A DNA stretch of 47,474 nucleotides from an uncultured Clostridia bacterium (GTDB lineage: Bacteria; Bacillota; Clostridia; Oscillospirales; JAAYOS01), in the NCBI GenBank assembly GCA_944387575.1, contig CALXFK010000035.1, positions 1 through 47,474 on the forward strand, written 5' to 3'. The notes beneath the pieces were generated by a model. That model was not told the origin of the DNA and did not search any database. It saw only the letters and a program-made list of their open reading frames with translations. Of this stretch, positions 37,748 through 47,474 are shown piece after piece (within the stretch, counting starts at the first letter, position 1; each line of letters starts with the position of its first letter). Made by a program: the position numbers and the translations under genes.

Positions 37748-38779
37748 ATGGCATCTGCATCTGCATCTACACGCATGAAAAAAGAGATCGCCTCAGGTGA
37801 ACCGGGGCGAATATATATAATGTATGGAGAGGAACGGTATCTTCTCGAATATCAGCTCGGACAGCTCATAAAGGCAACCGTTCCGGACGATTTTGCCGAC
37901 TTCAACCTATTCCGGTTCGACGGAGGGAAATTGACCCCTCACGAGCTCTCCGACGCACTCGAATCGCTTCCCGCATTCAGCGAGCGGAAGCTCATCATCG
38001 TCACCGACTTAGACCTGTTTCGTCTGTCCGCCGATTTGCGAGAGCAGTATTTGAAAGTGTTCAGCGACATCCCGGACTACGCGACCCTCGCCATAGTGTA
38101 TGACGCGCTCGAGTACAACCCGGACAAGCGCCAGAACATGTACAAATATCTCGAAGAGAACGCTCTTACGGTAGAATTTGAGTTTCAGGATGCGAAAAAG
38201 CTCGTTGGATGGCTCCGCCGCCGCGCCGATGCTCTGTCAAAGCAGCTCGACCCAAGCACAGCAGAGCACATGCTCTTCATATGCGGTAGCTCGATGACAG
38301 CTTTGATACAGGAGATAGAAAAAGCTGCGGCATACGCCTCCGGTCCGGCGATACTCGTCTCGGACATAGATGCGGTCTGCCAGCCCACCGTCGAGGCAAA
38401 CGTCTTTGCGCTCGCGGATGCGATAGCCGACCTGGACTCCGCACGCTCACTACACCTGCTCCGTGCGGTCATGTCGCTTGAAAGCGATCCGGTGCCGCTG
38501 TTCGGCGCGATAGGCAGCCACATGCGCCGCTTGCTTGCTGCCCGTCTTGCGATAGACGCAAACAGAAGTGCTTCTTTCGTCACCTCGGTGACCGGCACTC
38601 CACCATTTGCGGTAAACAGGTTACTCTCCACCGCGCGGAAGTTGCCACTCGAGTGGTGCCTGCGGGCAGTCAAAGCCTGCGCCGACTGCGACCACGCCTT
38701 CAAGAGCACTTCTGCCGACCCTTCCAACATGCTCGAGTCACTCGTGATGTCGCTCTGTTCTAAGGAGACACGGGTATGA
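37748..38779 (+). CDS. holA: DNA polymerase III delta subunit
   Basis: This 343-residue clamp-loader subunit opens the sliding clamp for loading. It has the HolA N-terminal AAA+-like domain with the degenerate loop YGEERYLLEYQL (about 26-37) and the conserved ESLPAFSERKLIIV, then the helical C-domain with GSSMTALIQEIEKAAAY and LFGAIGSHMRRLLAARLA. AGAGGA lies before the ATG; the first residues come from three GCATCT repeats, so a downstream start at residue 10 is possible. The stop overlaps the next gene by 4 nt. It follows comEC, the usual arrangement in Firmicutes. Confidence 0.94.
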   Translation: MASASASTRMKKEIASGEPGRIYIMYGEERYLLEYQLGQLIKATVPDDFADFNLFRFDGGKLTPHELSDALESLPAFSERKLIIVTDLDLFRLSADLREQYLKVFSDIPDYATLAIVYDALEYNPDKRQNMYKYLEENALTVEFEFQDAKKLVGWLRRRADALSKQLDPSTAEHMLFICGSSMTALIQEIEKAAAYASGPAILVSDIDAVCQPTVEANVFALADAIADLDSARSLHLLRAVMSLESDPVPLFGAIGSHMRRLLAARLAIDANRSASFVTSVTGTPPFAVNRLLSTARKLPLEWCLRAVKACADCDHAFKSTSADPSNMLESLVMSLCSKETRV

Positions 38780-39405
38780 GCGGTGCAAAGCCACGCATCC
38801 GCGAGGCGATAATAGTGGAGGGGCGATACGACAAGAACACGGTCATGCAGGCGGTGGACGCGCTCGTGGTTGAGACCGGCGGATTTTCCGCGCTCGGCGA
38901 CCGAGACCGCATCGCGTTCTTTCGGCTGCTCGCGGAACAGCGCGGGGTGGTCATCCTTACCGATGGGGACGGCGCGGGGTTCGTGATACGCGGTCGGCTC
39001 AAAGGCGCGCTCCCAAACGACCATAACAAGGTCAAACACGCCTACATTCCGGATATTTTTGGTAAGGAGCGCCGCAAGTCCGCGCCCTCCGCCGAGGGGA
39101 AGCTCGGCGTGGAGGGGATGCGGCGAGAGGTCATTGTCGAGGCGCTTCGCCGTGCGGGATGCACCTTCGAGGACGGCGAAGAACAAACAGAGCCACGGCT
39201 GACACGCTCGGGATTCATCGCTCTCGGGCTTTCCGGCGGCAAAAACAGCGCCGCCCTGAGGGCGGCGCTGCAGCGCAGTCTAGGTTTTCCTGAACAGATG
39301 AGCGGAAAGGCACTCTACGAGGCGCTCTCGCTCATGTACAGCGAGCGGGAACTCGCCGAACTCATTTCACGGATCTCTCACGTTCCCGGCGACCAAAGCC
39401 GATAA
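38776..39405 (+). CDS. rnmV: RNase M5-like toprim protein (DUF4093)
   Basis: This 209-residue protein has an N-terminal toprim domain with the catalytic Glu15 in IIVEGRYDK and the metal-binding Asp63 and Asp65 in LTDGDGAG, followed by a DUF4093-type C-terminal half with GFIALGLSGGKNSAALR. RNase M5 matures the 5S rRNA ends in Firmicutes. AAGGAG lies 8 nt before the ATG, which overlaps the holA stop by 4 nt. Its last 44 nt overlap the convergent O-antigen-ligase-like gene. I am confident of the family; the exact substrate is inferred from it. Confidence 0.85.
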   Translation: MSGAKPRIREAIIVEGRYDKNTVMQAVDALVVETGGFSALGDRDRIAFFRLLAEQRGVVILTDGDGAGFVIRGRLKGALPNDHNKVKHAYIPDIFGKERRKSAPSAEGKLGVEGMRREVIVEALRRAGCTFEDGEEQTEPRLTRSGFIALGLSGGKNSAALRAALQRSLGFPEQMSGKALYEALSLMYSERELAELISRISHVPGDQSR

Positions 39406-40933
39406 ATATCAGCACCGCCGCCATCCCCCAGAAGAGGGCATTCATATACGGGACCTCAAATATATTCTCGGTATAACAGTGGACTAGCACTCCGACCATC
39501 GCGGAGAGCAACGCCACCGCGACCGGATGCAGCGAACTTCCCTTTGCACGCCAGACCGAGCGGAGACCACAGAGCAGGGTGGACAAAAGCAGAAGGATAT
39601 ACGCCGCAAATCCCACATACCCCATTTCGACGAGCGTTTTGAGGTAGTAGTTGTCCATATAGAAGTAGCTTATCGCCTTGTTTGTCTGGTTCTGCATCGC
39701 AACCGCACCACCGAACCGACCAAGTCCATATCCAAACAGGGTATCACCGCTGTTGAACAGCGCCATCCCGTCGCGCCAGCGCCCGGCACGACCGCCGTAC
39801 TCGCTTGCGTGCCTGAACTCGTCGGTGAACAGGAAGGTAATACGGTTTGCGACCTGCGGGATGAACACCGCGACGCCGGCGGCAAGGAATATCGCCGCAA
39901 GCAGTCGCTTGTCCCGCAGCCACGCGAACACCGCGACCATCACCGCAAATCCGAGCCACGCTCCGCGCGAGAATGTCACAAGGCAGCTCACGCCCATCAG
40001 CCCGACCGCGCACCACGCGAGCACACGCCCCCAGCTGCTCCTGACGCGGTAGGCATACGAGGCAGCAAGCGGTGCCATCATTATCATATACGCGCCGCAA
40101 ATGTTCGGGCTTCCAAATATCGAATACACCCGCGTGCGGACCCCCTGCTCGGTCTGCGTAACCCAGTTCGAGGGTATCGGCGCCGCGACGATATACTGAT
40201 AAATGCAGTGAAGCGCGACAAGTGACGCCGTCGCCACAAGGACCCCGACAAATGCGTTCACGTCCCCCTCGTCCCGCATCACGCGGGTGAGCACGAAGAA
40301 CCAGAGCATATACTGCACCACCGCGCGCAGACCGTCTACCGCGATACCGAGTATCGGCGACACGACGCAGAGGCAGAGGAATCCGACGCCGAGGAAGAAT
40401 ATCAGCACCGTGTCGAGCGGAGTGGCGCAGTTAGGCTTCTCGTTTCCGGGGAACATCCTCTCGCAGACCAGGTACACAAACCCGAACGCGAGGAACGCCT
40501 CGTCCCAGCCGCCGGAGAGCGCCGCTACCGGCGAAAACTCGCGCAGCACCCAGTCTATCGGGATATACAGCGCGAACACCACCGTGATAAAGCGGTGCAT
40601 CCCCGCACCGAACAGCGCGCGGTACACGAGACTGTTGCGCATAGCGGCGGACCTGAACAGACGCACCACAGCGCTCGCCTCCACATACGACCAGCATCCG
40701 CGACCGAACCGCGCAAGCGCCGAATTGAACCGGGTGAGCATCGCCGCAAACGCGGATACGCGGTACCCCTCCCCACCGCCGAGCACCCGCTCGGTCACGC
40801 GACGGGTAGCCGAATTCGCATACGAACGCCTCATCGCACCGCCCATTGCTGCAATGAGGCTGAATATATACCACCCGTGCAGACGCTCTAACGCACGCAT
40901 GAGCAGTGAATTTTCAAACGCAGCCTTCAACAT
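39362..40933 (-). CDS. O-antigen ligase / Wzy-like polysaccharide polymerase
   Basis: This 523-residue membrane protein has a soluble, Arg-rich N-terminal stretch (about 1-100), then about eleven helices. The Wzy_C-type region contains VTFSRGAWLGFAV, typical of O-antigen ligases and polymerases, a long extracytoplasmic loop with EYGGRAGRWRDG, and GYGLGRFGG. Such enzymes join polyprenyl-linked glycans outside the membrane. I chose the ATG at 40933, 4 nt after the DUF4330 stop, over an in-frame ATG at 40966 that would overlap it. It is the last gene of a two-gene operon diverging from the GT4-CsaB fusion. In a single-membrane cell it cannot be an LPS ligase; capsule or wall polymer synthesis is likely. 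Confidence 0.88.
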   Translation of the reverse strand: MLKAAFENSLLMRALERLHGWYIFSLIAAMGGAMRRSYANSATRRVTERVLGGGEGYRVSAFAAMLTRFNSALARFGRGCWSYVEASAVVRLFRSAAMRNSLVYRALFGAGMHRFITVVFALYIPIDWVLREFSPVAALSGGWDEAFLAFGFVYLVCERMFPGNEKPNCATPLDTVLIFFLGVGFLCLCVVSPILGIAVDGLRAVVQYMLWFFVLTRVMRDEGDVNAFVGVLVATASLVALHCIYQYIVAAPIPSNWVTQTEQGVRTRVYSIFGSPNICGAYMIMMAPLAASYAYRVRSSWGRVLAWCAVGLMGVSCLVTFSRGAWLGFAVMVAVFAWLRDKRLLAAIFLAAGVAVFIPQVANRITFLFTDEFRHASEYGGRAGRWRDGMALFNSGDTLFGYGLGRFGGAVAMQNQTNKAISYFYMDNYYLKTLVEMGYVGFAAYILLLLSTLLCGLRSVWRAKGSSLHPVAVALLSAMVGVLVHCYTENIFEVPYMNALFWGMAAVLIFIGFGRRERERSVK

Positions 40934-40937
40934 TTCC

Positions 40938-41468
40938 TCAGCCCTGGGTAAACGCGCTCCGGTCAAACTCGACCGACTCTATCGTCCCATTGAATTCGAT
41001 GAACTGGCTCTTGACCGTGTGCGCCTTGCCCACGCGGACCTCCTGCGACCCGACCGTTATGAAGTCGCCCTTCGGGACCCTTGCCTCAATGGTAAATATG
41101 AGGTCGTTTCGGTCGTACTCCACCATCTGAGCAAACTCGCCGTCGGTGGAGAGCGCGGTGGACGGCTCGACATCCACAGAAACGATGTACGACGCATCCA
41201 CAAGACCCTCGTTGATACCGAGCTGCTGCGGGAACTCCATTGCGAGGATGTCGTCCCTAACGTTGTCCCGCACACCGCTTACACGCACGGTATAGGTGAC
41301 GTCGGTCCCGTTTTTGGCTGTGGACGCCTCGAGCGCCGCATTCGAAATACCGGCGCCAAATATCTTCCACACCACGCCGCCGACGACCGCGAGGATGAAC
41401 AGTACCACGAGAAGGTCGACAATGTTTATTATCCCGAACAGCTTTCCTTTTTCATTTACTATTTTCAT
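40938..41468 (-). CDS. DUF4330 membrane-anchored protein
   Basis: This 176-residue protein has a membrane helix near residues 11-33 (IINIVDLLVVLFILAVVGG) and a predicted extracytoplasmic domain of about 140 residues with beta-strand patterns such as VTYTVRVSGVRDNV and DFITVGSQEVRVGK. The pattern fits DUF4330, a family of unknown function that occurs beside polysaccharide genes. AGGAG lies 6 nt before the ATG at 41468; the frame is open 19 codons further upstream without support. The start of the ligase-like gene is 4 nt after its stop, so they are probably coupled. It could be an accessory factor of the polymerase. Confidence 0.85.
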   Translation of the reverse strand: MKIVNEKGKLFGIINIVDLLVVLFILAVVGGVVWKIFGAGISNAALEASTAKNGTDVTYTVRVSGVRDNVRDDILAMEFPQQLGINEGLVDASYIVSVDVEPSTALSTDGEFAQMVEYDRNDLIFTIEARVPKGDFITVGSQEVRVGKAHTVKSQFIEFNGTIESVEFDRSAFTQG

Positions 41469-41533
41469 TTGCAACTCCTGATGCTTGACCGCTGGCTTCG
41501 CGGTCTGTATAATGTGCCTGTACACACTTTTTG

Positions 41534-41562
41534 ATTGTACCTCATTTTACCTCGCAGCACAA
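41534..41562 (-). promoter_or_regulatory. Promoter of the DUF4330 / O-antigen-ligase operon
   Basis: On the minus strand, TTGTGC (41557-41562), a 17-bp spacer and TACAAT (41534-41539), about 66 bp before the DUF4330 start. The divergent GT4-CsaB gene starts 51 bp away on the other side; its own promoter is unclear. Confidence 0.65.
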
Positions 41563-41612
41563 CACTTTTTTGGTACAGATATTTCAGATATTTGAGAAAC
41601 GGAGACGAGCCA

Positions 41613-43844
41613 ATGAAAGTGCTTCACCTCATAGGCGGCGGAGATGTCGGCGGTGCAAAGACGCATGTTCTCTCGCTGCTGAGCGGGCTTGGTCACCACA
41701 TAACAGCCGAGCTTGTGAGCTTCCGTGCGGGCGGCTTTGCGCAGGAGGCGATCGCGCTCGGCATACCCACCCACGTAATATCAAACGGCAATGTCATGCG
41801 TGACATTGCAGAGCTTCGCACCCTCTACCGTGAGGGCGGTTACGACATAGTACACTGCCACGGCGCAAAAGGTAACATGATGGGCGCTCTTCTCCGTCTA
41901 CGCGAGCACGCCACCGTCGTTACCACCGTCCACTCGGACTACCGACTCGACTACATGGGTCGTCCGCTCGGCGCGCTGACATACGGCAACATAAACCGAG
42001 TTGCGCTCCGTCTTATCCCGAACCACATCGGGGTGAGCGACCCGGTAAGCGACATGCTTGTTTCGCGCGGCTTTGCACCATACGGCATATTTTCAATATA
42101 CAACGGTCTCGACTTTTCTGAGGAGGTCGGCACGCAACCGGAGGGATTCGACCGGTGGGAATACCTCCGCTCCATCGGTGCGGACTGCTCGCCGGGCGAC
42201 GTGGTGTGCTGCATTGCGGCGCGGCTCGACCCGGTCAAGGACATCGCGACTCTTATCCGCGCATTTGCCGGGACCCCCGAATATATGAAGCTGGTCATCG
42301 CCGGTGAGGGCGATGAGCGCGAGCGACTCACCGCGCTTGCCTCCGCTTCGGGAGCGGGCAAGCGCATATTTTTAGTGGGATGGCTGGACAGCGCCGACCC
42401 CCTCTACCGCGCCTGCGACATCAATCTCCTGACCTCGCTTTCAGAGACATTTCCATACGCCGTCACCGAGGGGGCGAGGCGCCGTCTCGCGACCATCTCC
42501 TCACGCGTTGGCGGGATCCCGCTGCTCATAGAAAACGGGGAGAACGGGTTCCTGTTTACCCCCGGCGACGCCGACGAGCTCAGAGACCTCCTCTGCATTC
42601 TCGGTGAGGATGGTGAGCTAAGGCGCGCTTTCGGCGAGCGGATATACGAAAAGGCGGCGCGCGAATTCTCCATTGACGCGACCATCAACCGCCAGCTCGA
42701 GATATACCGCACCATTCTCGCCCGCCGCGAGCTCCCGCGCCGCCAGGGCATCACTATCTGCGGCGCATACGGAAAGGGGAATACCGGCGACGACGCTATC
42801 CTCCAGTCGGTTATCGCCGGGCTCCGCTCGGTGCAGCCGCTCCGCCGGATATACGTCCTCTCCCGAAAGCCGGACGAGATACGCCTGCGATACCGGGTGG
42901 ATTCATCCTACACATTTAATATATTCGCAATGCTGCGCGCACTCCGGCACAGCACGCTGTATATCAACGGCGGCGGCAACCTTATCCAGGATATCACCTC
43001 GACCCGCTCGCTGATGTTTTACCTGTTCACCCTTTTTGCGGGCAAGCGCTGCGGGTGCAAAGTGCTGATGTACGGCTGCGGCATCGGTCCGGTGGGTCGT
43101 CCGCTCAACCGCCGTCTCACCTCCCGGACGCTTGATCGGTACGTCGACGAGATAACGCTGCGCGAGGATGAGAGCCGCGACGAGCTCCGCGACCTCGGGG
43201 TGCAGTCGCCGAGGGTCACCCTTGCCGCCGACCCCGCCCTCTCGCTCTCACCTGCCTCTCACGCCGCGGTGGACGAGGTCATGCACAAAAACGACCTTGA
43301 CCCGCAGGGCGCGTATATCTGCTTTTCTCTGCGCCCGTGGGAGGGATTCAACGAAAAACTGGAGGCGTTCGCCGCATGCGCCGCGCACGCATGGGACAAG
43401 TACCATCTCGAGGCGGTGCTGCTGCCGGTCGAACCCACTCGCGACCTCGCGGCGGCGCGCCGGGTCGCTGCACTCATAAGAACGCCCTGCCGCATAGTTG
43501 AAACGCCGCTCTCCCCCGAGCTCGCTCTCGGGGTCATATCAAGAATGCGCGCCGCCGTCTCCATGCGTTTGCACGGGCTGATATTCGCCGCTGGGGCGGG
43601 GGTGCCGCTCGTCGGAGTGGCATACGACAAGAAGGTCTCGAGCTTCCTGCACTACATGCACCAGGAGCTCTGCATACCGCTCGACGAGGTGGACGCGGAC
43701 AGCCTGTGCCGGCTTACCGACCTCGCACTCAGCAAGAACAGTGACGAGCTTGCACAGTCGGTCGAGCGGCTGCGCGCCGCAGAAAAGAACAACACTCAAG
43801 CCGTGCTCCGGCTGCTCGGCGGCAGCGCAGAGGCGTCCAGATAG
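41613..43844 (+). CDS. GT4 glycosyltransferase fused to CsaB-type pyruvyl transferase
   Basis: This 743-residue protein joins two enzymes. The N-terminal half (about 1-380) is a GT-B family 4 glycosyltransferase with GGGDVGGAKTHVLSLL at the start and the donor-binding E-x7-E motif within SETFPYAVTEG. The C-terminal half (about 382-735) is a polysaccharide pyruvyl transferase of the CsaB group with GAYGKGNTGDDAILQ, INGGGNLIQD, YGCGIGPVG and MRLHGLIFA. CsaB adds pyruvate ketals to wall polysaccharide, the ligand for SLH-domain proteins in Bacillus. Both halves look complete. I chose the ATG at 41613, with GGAG upstream. A second glycosyltransferase follows 18 nt later. Confidence 0.92.
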   Translation: MKVLHLIGGGDVGGAKTHVLSLLSGLGHHITAELVSFRAGGFAQEAIALGIPTHVISNGNVMRDIAELRTLYREGGYDIVHCHGAKGNMMGALLRLREHATVVTTVHSDYRLDYMGRPLGALTYGNINRVALRLIPNHIGVSDPVSDMLVSRGFAPYGIFSIYNGLDFSEEVGTQPEGFDRWEYLRSIGADCSPGDVVCCIAARLDPVKDIATLIRAFAGTPEYMKLVIAGEGDERERLTALASASGAGKRIFLVGWLDSADPLYRACDINLLTSLSETFPYAVTEGARRRLATISSRVGGIPLLIENGENGFLFTPGDADELRDLLCILGEDGELRRAFGERIYEKAAREFSIDATINRQLEIYRTILARRELPRRQGITICGAYGKGNTGDDAILQSVIAGLRSVQPLRRIYVLSRKPDEIRLRYRVDSSYTFNIFAMLRALRHSTLYINGGGNLIQDITSTRSLMFYLFTLFAGKRCGCKVLMYGCGIGPVGRPLNRRLTSRTLDRYVDEITLREDESRDELRDLGVQSPRVTLAADPALSLSPASHAAVDEVMHKNDLDPQGAYICFSLRPWEGFNEKLEAFAACAAHAWDKYHLEAVLLPVEPTRDLAAARRVAALIRTPCRIVETPLSPELALGVISRMRAAVSMRLHGLIFAAGAGVPLVGVAYDKKVSSFLHYMHQELCIPLDEVDADSLCRLTDLALSKNSDELAQSVERLRAAEKNNTQAVLRLLGGSAEASR

Positions 43845-43862
43845 GAAAGCGAGGTTTTTAAA

Positions 43863-45026
43863 ATGCACCACATCGTCTGCCTGTCCACCACCGCGTGGCA
43901 CGCGCACCCGACCCGCAAGCAGCAGGTCATGAGCCGCATACCGGATGCTGAGATTCTCTATTTCGACCCTCCTGTCACCTATCTCGCCCCGCTGCGTGAC
44001 CGTTCTGCCCGTCCCCTTCTCTCCGAATACAAGAAGCCGGGAGAGGCGGTGCTGCCGAACGTCACCCGGTACTCGCTTCCCCCCATTCTCCCGTTTTACA
44101 ACAAAAAGCGGTTCATCAACAGAATGAACCGCAGCCGCATAGCCGAGACGGTGGAAAACGCAATGCGCGAGCATGGGTTCGGCGGGGAGACAGTGCTGTG
44201 GGTATACCATCCCTCGTACGTGGACGCAGTGCGGCTGATACCCCACTCGGCGCTGGTATATGACTGCGTAGACCGGCACTCCGCCTACCCCGGACTGATC
44301 GACCGGGAGACGGTAGACGGCATGGAACGCGAACTTGCGGGCGACTGCAACATGGTGTTCGCAACCGCACAGGGGCTCTACGACACGCTGAGCGGGTACA
44401 ACCCAAACACGATGCTCCTCCCGAACGGCGCCGCGTACGAGCTCTTCTCGCGCGCCGCCGACCCGGCGCTCCCCACCGACCCGCGTATCGCGGCACTCAA
44501 GTCTCCGGTGCTCGGCTTTGTTGGCGCTATCCAGCCGTGCATCGATGTGCCGCTGATGGCGTTTGCCGCCGCGTCCCGACCCGACTGGAACTTCGTTTTC
44601 ATCGGAGACCCGCTGCCAGGTGTGGACATAAGCTCGCTTCGCGCGCTGCCCAACGTCCATCTGCTCGGCAGGCTCCCGCAGGGTGAACTGCCCGCCTGCA
44701 TACGTGGCTTCGACGTGTGTCTGAGCCTGTTCCGCGACAACTCGCTTTCCCGCGACGTCAGCCCGCTGAAGTTCTACGAATACCTCGCTACCGGAAAGCC
44801 GATAGTTGCAAGCCGTGAACCGTCGCAGGTGCTGCGCTACGCAGACTCGGTGTACATCACATCCGGAGAGAACGACATGCTCGAATGCTGCGAGCGCGCC
44901 CTCTCCGAAAGCGGCAGCGACGCTGCCGCCCGCCGTATGGAATACGCCTCACACTGCTCGTGGGATGCGCGGGTCGCCGAAATGCGCGCTGCACTAGCCG
45001 CGCGCGGAATACTTAAAAACCTGTAA
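43863..45026 (+). CDS. Glycosyltransferase, GT1/TuaH-like
   Basis: This 387-residue GT-B protein resembles the glycosyltransferases of teichuronic-acid and capsule clusters (TuaH-like). It begins HHIVCLSTTAWHAHPTRKQQ and shows ETVLWVYHPSYV, ALVYDCVDRHSAYPG, the second Rossmann domain GFVGAIQPCIDVPLMA, and the donor-site region SPLKFYEYLATGKPIV (about 300-316). No membrane helix is seen, so it should be peripheral and cytoplasmic. It is probably co-transcribed with the GT4-CsaB fusion. The sugars it uses are unknown. Confidence 0.9.
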   Translation: MHHIVCLSTTAWHAHPTRKQQVMSRIPDAEILYFDPPVTYLAPLRDRSARPLLSEYKKPGEAVLPNVTRYSLPPILPFYNKKRFINRMNRSRIAETVENAMREHGFGGETVLWVYHPSYVDAVRLIPHSALVYDCVDRHSAYPGLIDRETVDGMERELAGDCNMVFATAQGLYDTLSGYNPNTMLLPNGAAYELFSRAADPALPTDPRIAALKSPVLGFVGAIQPCIDVPLMAFAAASRPDWNFVFIGDPLPGVDISSLRALPNVHLLGRLPQGELPACIRGFDVCLSLFRDNSLSRDVSPLKFYEYLATGKPIVASREPSQVLRYADSVYITSGENDMLECCERALSESGSDAAARRMEYASHCSWDARVAEMRAALAARGILKNL

Positions 45027-45045
45027 AACGGAACTTCCGCGGATA

Positions 45046-45074
45046 TTGTATTTTCGCGCTACATGCTATATAAT
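45046..45074 (+). promoter_or_regulatory. Sigma-A promoter of the YhfC-like gene
   Basis: TTGTAT (45046-45051), a 17-bp spacer and a perfect TATAAT (45069-45074), 36 bp before the start. Confidence 0.78.
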
Positions 45075-45109
45075 CGGAGAAGCGACATTTTCATACGACG
45101 GAGGTTTGA

Positions 45110-45916
45110 ATGATTTCGACTTCACTTATTGTGACAATGTGGATAGTGGCGGGCGTGCTCACACTCATCACGCTGGCGCTCCCGTTTATCATTGACGGTC
45201 ACGTTGAATTCACGCTCAGCGCCATTTTCCTCGGCATAATTATGTACGCCGGTTTCGACGCAATACTGCTCGACGTTTTCGACACGATAGTTCTCGGGCA
45301 CATGTCCACCGACCTGTATAACTACATATATTCAAACAACACTCTCTACGTCATATACTACACGTTTATCCACGCCCTGTTCTACACCGCCGGGTTCTAC
45401 ACCGTGGCACGTATGGGCTTCCGCGTAGACCGTAACGGCACCGGCATTGCTATCGGCATCGGAGCCGGTGGCGCGCGCGCTGTCATGAGCGGCGCATGGC
45501 CGCTTGTCACCCGCGCTGTCTCCGCGGCGCAGGTCAACAAGATGGGCATAGACGCCTACCTCTCCGGCGCGACCGAGGAGGAGGTGGACAACCTCCGCGG
45601 CGCGATAGAGTCTCTCCAGAATTCCACCCCTGGCGACGTGGTCTGGAGCGGTGTGGAGACCCTGCTCATGTTCGCGGTGCTCGTTGCAATAGCGGTCATT
45701 ATCCACATTGCCGCCACCCACCGCGGTCCGATATGGCTCATAGGCGTTGGGAGCCTGCTGCTCCTTGCGATGTTCGCACCCGCCGCGATGTACACCGTTG
45801 GTATGATAACGAGCGTACCGCTGCTCGAAGCGTGCATCTTTGCTGTCGCGGCGGCGTCGGTCGCTGTCGCAGTGCCTGTAGCACGCAGGTACATGGATAA
45901 CCCGCTAAAATTTTAA
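45110..45916 (+). CDS. Polytopic membrane protein, YhfC-like with degenerate motifs
   Basis: This 268-residue protein has about seven hydrophobic helices. The layout and the segment AGFYTVARMGFRVDRNG followed by GIAIGIGAGGARAVMSG recall the YhfC family of putative membrane peptidases, whose members have an E-E-x-x-R motif and GIGHGGxEA at these two places. Here the Glu pair, the His and the second Glu are replaced, so any protease activity is doubtful. The middle of the protein carries an acidic loop (SGATEEEVDNLRGAIESLQ). GGAGG lies 7 nt before the ATG. It has its own promoter and terminator, so it is a separate unit after the glycosyltransferases. The family link is my inference from pattern, not a search. 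Confidence 0.7.
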   Translation: MISTSLIVTMWIVAGVLTLITLALPFIIDGHVEFTLSAIFLGIIMYAGFDAILLDVFDTIVLGHMSTDLYNYIYSNNTLYVIYYTFIHALFYTAGFYTVARMGFRVDRNGTGIAIGIGAGGARAVMSGAWPLVTRAVSAAQVNKMGIDAYLSGATEEEVDNLRGAIESLQNSTPGDVVWSGVETLLMFAVLVAIAVIIHIAATHRGPIWLIGVGSLLLLAMFAPAAMYTVGMITSVPLLEACIFAVAAASVAVAVPVARRYMDNPLKF

Positions 45917-45972: not shown

Positions 45973-46200
45973 TCAGCCGTTCACTCGCGTGAACCGGGTG
46001 ACCTCTCCCTGTGCCGTCTGTACCGTTTCGTTCCACATCCGCGCCGGGCGCACCCAGGTCTCCCCGCCCTCATAGAGTGCGCGGTAGACCACCATCAACT
46101 CCCCGGTCTCACTGTGACGCGCAGTGAAAAGCAGTTCGTACTCGCCGCCCTTGTAATGGCGGTACACCCCCGCTTCAAACACTTTCTCTTCCACGCTCAA
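45973..46200 (-). CDS. DUF1653 domain protein
   Basis: This 75-residue protein is almost entirely a DUF1653 domain: GVYRHYKGGEYELLFTARHS near residues 11-30, then VVYRALYE and WVRPARMW. The family is small, beta-rich, cytoplasmic and of unknown function. The likely start is TTG at 46200, with GGAGGG 6 nt upstream and a 4-nt overlap with the stop of the glycoside hydrolase; a GTG at 46194 is an alternative. It is probably co-translated with that enzyme, though no functional link is known. Confidence 0.88.
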   Translation of the reverse strand: MSVEEKVFEAGVYRHYKGGEYELLFTARHSETGELMVVYRALYEGGETWVRPARMWNETVQTAQGEVTRFTRVNG

Positions 46201-47474
46201 AGGTCGCCCTCCCCGCCTGTACGGGAGAGCTTAAGCGTGCGCCGGTCGTAGGTCATGATGCCGTTGCACTCCTCCTCCACGTCGCTGAGCTGCGTGTATA
46301 TCGCCGCGCACAGACCGCGCCTCTTCGCATCCTCCAATTCGCCCCCGTACAGCGCGCCGAAGGCTTCGCGCAAGCTCTTGATGCTGTCAAAACTGCGGTA
46401 ACTGCCGCCCATACCGCTCCACGGGCGCGACCCCTGCGCGCCGAGCAGATACCCGCCGAATGCGCTGAGCACCGTCGGACGCGACGTATCGGGGTGGAAG
46501 TTCAGCTTGCGCGAGTAGATATGCAGGCTGCGAAGCTCGCCGCCCTGGTCGTACCACCCAGAGGCGTGGTCTATGAGGCGGGTGCGGTCGAGTTCGTGGA
46601 TCCTGTCCTCCGCCTCGAGCGCGTCGAACTGACCCCACCCCTCGTTGAACGCCGTCCAGAGCACGACAGACGGAGAGTTGTACAGCAGGTTTACCGTCGC
46701 CTCAAGCTCGCGTATGTACTCCTCTCGCCCGCGGTCATCCGAGCGTGCAAACTTCTGGTAGTCGTTGTCCCGCAGCTTCATCCCGGTCACCGGCAGAAGC
46801 GACGTGACCGCCTTCGAATACTTTCCGCCGCCGCACACGAGATCCTGCCAGACCAGCACCCCGCGCCGGTCACAGTGGTAGTACCACCGGAGCGGCTCTA
46901 TCTTCATGTGCTTGCGCAAGGTGTTGAACCCCTCACGCTTCGCGGTGTCTATGTCAAACACGAGCGCCTCATCCGCCGGGGCGGTATACAGACCATCGGG
47001 CCAGTACCCCTCGTCTAGCAGCCCATCGCAGAAGTATTCGCTGTTGTTGAGGTATATCCGCTTGTAGCCGTCCTCACCGGCACAAACCTCTATCTTGCGC
47101 ATACCGAAGTAGCTCAGCACCCTGTCGTCGCCCGCGGTGACTATGAGGTCGTACAGGAACGGATGCTCCGGGCTCCAACTCTCAAACTGACCGAGCTCGA
47201 GCACGAGCGTCTCGCTGCTGCTCCCCTCGGCGGTCGCCACGAGTTTTTTGCCTACGCTCGCTATCGCCATCACCGGAATATCCGCGTACCCGGTGTCCAC
47301 CTCGACTATCACCGCGCCGCCGTCGTAATCCGGCGTTATACGGAGCGACCGGATATAGTTCTCCGGCAGATTTTCAAGCCACACCGTCTGCCATATACCG
47401 CTCTGCGCGGTGTGCCAGATACCCCCGCTCTGCAGGCGCTGCCTTCCTCGGGAATGGTACGACGCATCGCTCTC
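46197..47474 (-). CDS. Glycoside hydrolase family 2 enzyme (5' end missing)
   Basis: The last 425 residues of a family 2 glycoside hydrolase are present; the frame is open to the right edge, so the N-terminal sugar-binding domain is cut. The visible part starts within that domain with LQSGGIWHTAQSGIWQTVWLE, continues through the immunoglobulin-like domain (YLNNSEYF), and enters the catalytic barrel with LRKHMKIEPLRWYYHCDRRG. The acid/base Glu is in WTAFNEGWGQ (46641-46643). At the usual nucleophile position the sequence is VLSAFGGY, where relatives have Glu-Phe/Tyr-Gly-Gly, so an Ala replaces the expected Glu. Relatives are beta-galactosidases, beta-glucuronidases or similar; the substrate is unknown. 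Confidence 0.92.
   Translation of the reverse strand, partial: ESDASYHSRGRQRLQSGGIWHTAQSGIWQTVWLENLPENYIRSLRITPDYDGGAVIVEVDTGYADIPVMAIASVGKKLVATAEGSSSETLVLELGQFESWSPEHPFLYDLIVTAGDDRVLSYFGMRKIEVCAGEDGYKRIYLNNSEYFCDGLLDEGYWPDGLYTAPADEALVFDIDTAKREGFNTLRKHMKIEPLRWYYHCDRRGVLVWQDLVCGGGKYSKAVTSLLPVTGMKLRDNDYQKFARSDDRGREEYIRELEATVNLLYNSPSVVLWTAFNEGWGQFDALEAEDRIHELDRTRLIDHASGWYDQGGELRSLHIYSRKLNFHPDTSRPTVLSAFGGYLLGAQGSRPWSGMGGSYRSFDSIKSLREAFGALYGGELEDAKRRGLCAAIYTQLSDVEEECNGIMTYDRRTLKLSRTGGEGDL

Follow-up and report, generated by a model that had tools for sequence, protein, structure and literature searches.

SLH proteins are a main means for the display of S-layers and enzymes by Clostridia. Assays of CsaB and TagA have reportedly been made in Paenibacillus alvei. 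The anchoring of SLH proteins by a pyruvylated secondary cell-wall polymer (SCWP) is a described route (PMC6030368, PMC7831098, PMC6801904). In P. alvei, the SCWP locus comprises csaB-tagA-tagO, with mnaA lying elsewhere (PMC6030368), while the later steps of SCWP assembly are described in a review as elusive, with neither a Wzx/Wzy nor an ABC route being favoured (PMC6801904). In the S-layer gene cluster of Bacillus anthracis, CsaB is accompanied by a Wzy-like protein and O-acetylation genes, and a Wzx/Wzy-type assembly has been proposed (PMC6801904). Here, a locus found in an uncultured Clostridia bacterium is compared with these systems. The locus lies on contig CALXFK010000035.1 (C35), which at its full length of 47,474 bases is referred to as the window and which belongs to a draft assembly of 109 contigs totalling 1.85 Mb, with an estimated completeness of 88%.

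The locus contains a conserved unit of four genes, in which those encoding a Wzy_C/O-antigen-ligase-like protein (Wzy) and a DUF4330 protein face those encoding a GT4 glycosyltransferase fused to CsaB (GT4-CsaB) and a second glycosyltransferase. This unit is probably part of the clostridial machinery for a pyruvylated SCWP bound by SLH proteins, a reading that draws on the genes observed, their neighbourhood and co-occurrence, predicted folds, conserved residues and a conserved promoter.

A conserved four-gene unit

Pfam and NCBIfam scans revealed the five open reading frames named in the initial annotation, i.e., the four genes above and one encoding a YhfC-like protein, all to be present with the domains it had assigned, together with the 144-bp gap (positions 41469-41612) from which DUF4330 and GT4-CsaB diverge. 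The features are listed below, with start codons according to our reading (ATG at 40933 for Wzy, 41468 for DUF4330 and 41613 for GT4-CsaB).

39362..40933, minus strand: Wzy_C/O-antigen-ligase-superfamily membrane protein, 523 amino acids from the ATG at 40933 (PF04932)
40938..41468, minus strand: DUF4330 protein, 176 amino acids, with one N-terminal membrane helix and an extracytoplasmic beta domain, as predicted (PF14221, structural model)
41485..41513, plus strand: sigma-70-type promoter match TTGACC-17-TATAAT directed towards GT4-CsaB (11 of 12 consensus bases)
41534..41562, minus strand: weaker promoter-like match TTGTGC-17-TACAAT directed towards DUF4330-Wzy (consensus match alone)
41613..43844, plus strand: GT4 glycosyltransferase fused to a CsaB-type polysaccharide pyruvyltransferase (PF00534/PF13439, PF04230, TIGR03609)
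43863..45026, plus strand: GT-B type glycosyltransferase, TuaH-like (PF13692)
45110..45916, plus strand: YhfC-like membrane protein, judged to lie outside the unit (PF10086)

On the minus strand, Wzy starts 4 bp past the DUF4330 stop; on the plus strand, GT4-CsaB and the TuaH-like gene are spaced by 18 bp. The distribution of these genes was considered in 147 genomes of the order, of which 78 encode DUF4330 and 81 CsaB, in 80 named-species loci from 157 DUF4330 relatives (some of these genomes being shared with the order sample), and in 219 genomes of the phylum. A Wzy_C match was detected within 3 kb of DUF4330 on the same strand in at least 63 of the 78 DUF4330-encoding genomes of the order, with Wzy lying downstream of DUF4330, again within 3 kb and on the same strand, in 76 of the 80 named loci. 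In 44 of the named loci, 29 codirectional and 15 divergent, CsaB lies no further than 6.5 kb from DUF4330. CsaB is fused to GT4 in 25 of the former and in all 15 of the latter, and is accompanied by a second glycosyltransferase in 24 and 13, respectively (37 of 44 overall). As the codirectional loci most commonly read GT4-CsaB, glycosyltransferase, DUF4330, Wzy, the divergent layout of the window appears to be one branch of a more widespread arrangement. In the phylum sample, DUF4330 was seen in 48 of 219 genomes, with CsaB lying within 5 kb in 23 of these.

Accordingly, the placing of a pyruvylating and glycosylating pair beside Wzy_C and DUF4330, put forward in the initial annotation, is a conserved arrangement in Clostridia. 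As for rare adjacency or failure to co-occur across genomes, which would have spoken against that proposal, the four genes were found to be recurrent neighbours, although CsaB lies within 5 kb of DUF4330 in 24 of the 78 order genomes (21 divergent, three on the same strand), a count affected by the shortness of the contigs in that sample.

A gene of the MurJ family directly adjoins Wzy on the same strand in seven of 37 relative loci containing both Wzy and DUF4330 (L054, L055, L057, L059, L070, L086 and L096). In L054, MurJ, Wzy, GT4, DUF4330, DUF4330 and CsaB-GT4 follow one another on one strand, and the flippase of L057 scores 315.8 bits against MurJ (cut-off 235.6). No flippase adjoins the unit in the window. 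A separate type was noted in Ruminiclostridium (L136, L145, L164 and L175), where DUF4330-Wzy has an unfused pyruvyltransferase upstream and is accompanied by a glycosyltransferase that, by our reading, looks like one of family 2; in L136, Pfam additionally detects Wzx-type and FrhB-type proteins.

The promoter element of the window is likewise conserved. The exact sequence TTGACC-17-TATAAT occurs within 320 bp upstream of the GT4-CsaB fusion in 20 of 24 divergent loci, the window counted and families f1, f2 and f3 included, as compared to one of nine loci where no DUF4330 was seen (L050, a short contig) and none of 25 codirectional loci. In all, 37 occurrences were counted in 2.31 Mb of locus sequence, overlapping loci included. 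In eight f3 loci (L039 and L041-L047), the same gap also contains an opposite-strand match to TTGnnn-17-TATAAT.

The fused protein scores 143.9 bits against PS_pyruv_trans (PF04230; cut-off 25.3) and 231 bits against NCBIfam CsaB (TIGR03609; cut-off 213.1), and also contains the GT4 domains. All 57 uncut fused proteins, that of the window included, present the pattern R-x-H-x19-K. This is the spacing of R306, H308 and K328 which, together with R148, are described as phosphoenolpyruvate-site residues of P. alvei CsaB (PMC10435577), such that these three residues of the site are considered to be present; an equivalent of R148 was not found by pattern among the fused proteins. The second glycosyltransferase scores 34.4 bits against PF13692 (cut-off 27.0) and 104.1 bits against the TuaH model, under the cut-off of 550.

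The Wzy_C protein and its DUF4330 neighbour

The window Wzy protein is called by Pfam as Wzy_C (63.3 bits, cut-off 31.7) and not as FTSW_RODA_SPOVE. Its structural model (pLDDT, a model-confidence score, of 84.7) matches WaaL (7tpg_B) with a Z score of 26.4 over 358 residues, as compared to 12.3-14.7 for the SEDS proteins FtsW and RodA. When the Wzy profile was compared with PDB sequences, no match was obtained at E up to 1. Among NCBIfam models, the closest is IctB (TIGR00947; 110.4 bits), which is also the best model for two other DUF4330-linked Wzy proteins, namely, L057:6960-8555 and L133:9516-11162 (104 and 168 bits). Because these scores fall far under the cut-off of 366.4, none of the three is regarded as an IctB member. 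That model carries the label 'putative bicarbonate transporter', although the window protein folds like WaaL.

The pattern H-[NSQ]-x9-G-x-x-[GTY] is presumably the catalytic-histidine motif of WaaL-type O-antigen ligases. In the window protein, the histidine is absent and Asp427 stands at X of X-N-x9-G-x-x-G, with aspartate occupying the same position in 37 of 37 aligned proteins of the window's clade. When 108 DUF4330-linked Wzy proteins were considered, a set in which the same gene may recur in overlapping loci, 91 contained aspartate (including L174, where a second motif match was seen) and 13 histidine, with neither being read in four (L056, L094, L095 and L153). In 20 Wzy_C proteins of the order with no link to DUF4330, among them two near-identical pairs, 17 contained histidine and one aspartate, while two were unread. 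Aspartate as a mark of every DUF4330-linked Wzy was therefore ruled out by the 13 histidine-containing proteins, which come from 11 loci with tandem DUF4330 and from L065 and L089. The tandem DUF4330 genes or domains seen with a histidine-type Wzy are those of L054, L055, L057, L059, L070, L084, L086, L087, L090, L096 and L097, whereas the Wzy of two further tandem loci, L094 and L095, presents neither residue. Where DUF4330 is single, the Wzy partner is mostly of the aspartate type.

In RodA, Asp262 is said to act analogously to WaaL His338 (PMC10449877). Given this analogy and the aspartate of the window's clade, we lean towards the window Wzy protein being an outer-face polymerase (or else a ligase) of a wall polymer.

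The DUF4330 protein scores 105 bits against PF14221 (cut-off 27.6), with no other Pfam match. Its model (pLDDT 86.7) comprises a conserved NEKGKLFG-type N-terminus, one long helix and then a beta domain. A 75-member DUF4330 profile gave nothing below E 0.2 against the PDB, Foldseek returned 455 matches at a limit of E 10 but none at a limit of E 0.001, and in a second structure comparison, the best match was to an elongation-factor chain (Z 5.0). As the helix was barely covered in the fold comparison, no new fold is claimed. The reading of DUF4330 as a Wzz protein, or as belonging to a fold already solved, was set aside in light of PF14221 being the sole Pfam call and no clear structural match being found, Wzz not having been sought in the genome. 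Of 14 control genomes, only that of the cyanobacterium Synechococcus elongatus encodes DUF4330. No paper on this family was found among 5.39 million open papers.

In the order sample, 15 of the 81 CsaB genomes are without DUF4330, while 12 of the 78 DUF4330 genomes are without strong CsaB, such that DUF4330 is neither required for, nor restricted to, pyruvylation; indeed, the latter count disfavours a part for DUF4330 in pyruvylation itself. Since DUF4330 tracks Wzy more closely than CsaB, it is placed with the Wzy enzyme, as an accessory component absent from many bacteria with SLH proteins. We thus infer that DUF4330 acts with Wzy rather than in pyruvylation, and propose that it may serve as a membrane-anchored partner or helper of an outer-face polymerase.

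In three loci of family f19 (L091-L093), no Wzy_C was called beside DUF4330. The proteins encoded upstream in L091 and L092 gave no Pfam match at E 0.5, and the local Wzy profile matched weakly in L091. These proteins of approximately 600 residues preceding DUF4330 (L091:1804-3564 and L092:7040-8851) are possibly very divergent Wzy proteins.

A more speculative extension, which we consider rather doubtful, would make DUF4330 a dedicated single-pass subunit of a WaaL-fold polymerase in which, in one large clade, histidine was swapped for an aspartate like that of RodA and FtsW. DUF4330 might then be to Wzy what a penicillin-binding protein is to RodA, or Wzz to Wzy, setting chain length or passing the polymer on. 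Two subtypes would exist, one with a single DUF4330 and an aspartate-type Wzy and the other with tandem DUF4330 and a mostly histidine-type Wzy, and pairing with IctB-like proteins might build SLH-binding glycans in cyanobacteria as well.

SLH proteins and the proposed wall-polymer pathway

The genome containing the window presents 45 SLH matches over cut-off in 21 open reading frames, none of which lies on the window's contig. It also encodes one TagA-type protein (PF03808; G000:C61:252-749, 203.5 bits) and two PF00953 proteins, the first of which is presumably MraY, given that its gene adjoins an FtsW-type gene, and the second of which has WecA as its nearest model, at 140 bits and hence short of the cut-off of 326. 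The TagA and WecA-like genes are found on contigs other than that of the window. One LCP protein was detected (PF03816, 135.3 bits), with a putative role on this polymer, as were six MurJ-family matches, five over cut-off, the best being SpoVB-like but under the cut-off of the SpoVB model. As such, the earlier observation that no flippase, phosphoglycosyltransferase or SLH protein is in view is accurate for the locus genes examined but does not extend to the genome, where all three types exist elsewhere.

Across the order, CsaB tracks SLH, as the check suggested in the initial annotation revealed. With SLH-positive genomes defined as those with seven or more SLH matches, SLH was found in 77 of 81 CsaB-positive versus five of 66 CsaB-negative genomes (Fisher 3e-30), and TagA in 77 of 81 versus 18 of 66 (Fisher 1e-18), although these values overstate the case because the genomes compared are kin and not independent events. 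Moreover, in 13 of the 29 codirectional loci, the gene immediately upstream of GT4-CsaB encodes an SLH protein (12 by motif, L174 by Pfam). The gap between GT4-CsaB and the gene upstream of it ranges from -6 to 104 bp in 15 loci, in three of which that gene is without an SLH motif. In each of the six upstream SLH proteins scanned with Pfam, the SLH region is joined to a NAGPA phosphodiester-glycosidase domain. These secreted proteins with C-terminal SLH (L128:2363-5515, L133:2538-5528, L144:2561-5605, L155:2627-5638, L169:2267-5284 and L174:3270-5561) are possibly wall-polymer editing enzymes. In L132, the upstream protein presents NAGPA without SLH by Pfam, and those of L160 and L173, which lie outside the Pfam-scanned set, look similar.

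The presence of SLH, TagA, WecA-like, LCP and flippase types in the genome, together with the co-occurrence of CsaB, TagA and SLH, points to a clostridial layout of the CsaB/SLH secondary-wall-polymer pathway already known. In such a pathway, for which each catalytic step and the identities of the sugars are deduced, a WecA/TagO-like enzyme encoded elsewhere in the genome would start a lipid-linked repeat, to which TagA, also encoded elsewhere, would add N-acetylmannosamine. The GT4 domain and the TuaH-like glycosyltransferase would complete the repeat, and the fused CsaB domain would add a pyruvate ketal. A MurJ/Wzx-type flippase would then move the repeat outward, where, at the outer face, the WaaL-fold Wzy would polymerise it alongside DUF4330. 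Finally, an LCP protein would join the polymer to peptidoglycan and SLH proteins would dock on the pyruvylated sugar.

Several points weigh against this assignment. For this organism, the polymer is predicted from genes. CsaB and the DUF4330-Wzy pair are not close neighbours in most genomes of the order, each of CsaB and DUF4330 occurs without the other in the counts given above, and CsaB exceeds its cut-off in 162 of the 219 phylum genomes, as compared to 48 with DUF4330. Moreover, a DUF4330-linked Wzy may be of the aspartate or the histidine type, and it is by inference that the window protein is taken to polymerise rather than ligate. Wzy_C and DUF4330 could instead form a ligase that takes the completed pyruvylated glycan off its lipid carrier and joins it to an acceptor, in the wall or on a protein, presented by DUF4330, replacing the single LCP protein or acting besides it. 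The closest solved fold being WaaL rather than a SEDS polymerase, the finding of one LCP gene alone in the genome, and the retention of the ligase-type histidine in 13 of 108 linked Wzy proteins would all suit such an enzyme. On the other hand, the histidine position is held by aspartate throughout the aligned members of the window's clade, an LCP gene is present, and the seven MurJ-Wzy neighbourhoods fit a polymerase equally well, such that a ligase appears unlikely, if well worth considering.

It is less probable still that the unit makes a pyruvylated exopolysaccharide, a teichuronic-like polymer or a protein glycan unrelated to SLH proteins. The resemblance of the second glycosyltransferase to TuaH of teichuronic acid synthesis, albeit under cut-off, and the 12 of 78 genomes with DUF4330-Wzy but no strong CsaB speak for such a product, against which stand the co-occurrence of CsaB and SLH in the order and the SLH genes directly upstream of GT4-CsaB. 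As to the original proposal that a five-gene set including YhfC represents a hitherto undescribed means of building or attaching a pyruvylated wall glycan, this is hardly credible. In the window, the YhfC gene (PF10086, 53.3 bits; cut-off 24.2) does share its strand with the glycosyltransferase gene and starts 83 bp past it. Nonetheless, in the same-family relatives L035 and L038, purine genes part the glycosyltransferase from YhfC (L035:2197-3006 and L038:1942-2751), seven of these being confirmed by Pfam as of the PurD, PurN, PurM, PurC and PurE types, and of eight mapped loci containing YhfC, two same-genome pairs included (L031/L102 and L034/L099), the window alone presents the adjacency. 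YhfC was therefore ruled out as a fifth member, and is instead a chance neighbour that lies next to the glycosyltransferase because the intervening purine genes are absent from the window. Nor is the undescribed character of the pathway supported, given the presence of known-pathway parts in the genome and the co-occurrence of CsaB, TagA and SLH across the order. The SLH-bound SCWP hence remains the preferred product.

Flanking the locus, a Toprim/DUF4093 (RNase M5-like) gene (38776-39405) lies tail to tail with the Wzy gene (39362-40933), with a 44 bp overlap. At the other side are a DUF1653 gene (45973-46200) and a GH2-family glycosidase fragment (46197-47474) truncated by the contig end.

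Comparison with described systems

No title or abstract opening describing the four-gene unit was found in the open literature, a search outside of which most subscription papers fall. The GT4-CsaB fusion itself has probably been seen before, given that, in CAZy, putative pyruvyltransferases from two clostridia are listed as GT4 (PMC6801904). The gathering of CsaB, a glycosyltransferase, the WaaL-fold enzyme and DUF4330, joined in some relatives by MurJ in the same run, speaks for Clostridia using a route of the Wzx/Wzy type, and the conserved unit provides the unstudied DUF4330 family with a testable role.

As regards the Wzy protein, the similarity to WaaL (PDB 7tpg) lies in the fold and in membership of the Wzy_C family, and the difference in the aspartate that replaces the motif histidine in the window's clade, at a position that may correspond to WaaL His338. 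The likeness to the SEDS proteins RodA and FtsW consists of the weaker fold match and of the use of Asp262 by RodA, from which the Pfam call sets the window protein apart. IctB provides the best NCBIfam model, yet far under cut-off.

At the level of the pathway, the system resembles that responsible for the P. alvei SCWP in having CsaB, TagA and a TagO/WecA-like enzyme in the genome and SLH proteins as clients. It differs in that CsaB of the window is fused to GT4 and lies beside a second glycosyltransferase, Wzy_C and DUF4330, with the TagA and WecA-like genes found on other contigs, whereas the portion of PMC6030368 drawn on here names no Wzy or DUF4330 gene in the P. alvei locus. With the B. 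anthracis S-layer cluster, as far as described in the excerpted source, the unit shares the pairing of CsaB with a Wzy-like protein and SLH clients; this likeness covers neither the GT4 fusion nor DUF4330, and the O-acetylation genes of that cluster are a further difference. In sum, the pathway is of a known kind and takes a clostridial form that is conserved and includes one conserved, unstudied component, with what is new relative to these systems being the clostridial layout and DUF4330 as the near-constant partner of a WaaL-fold enzyme.

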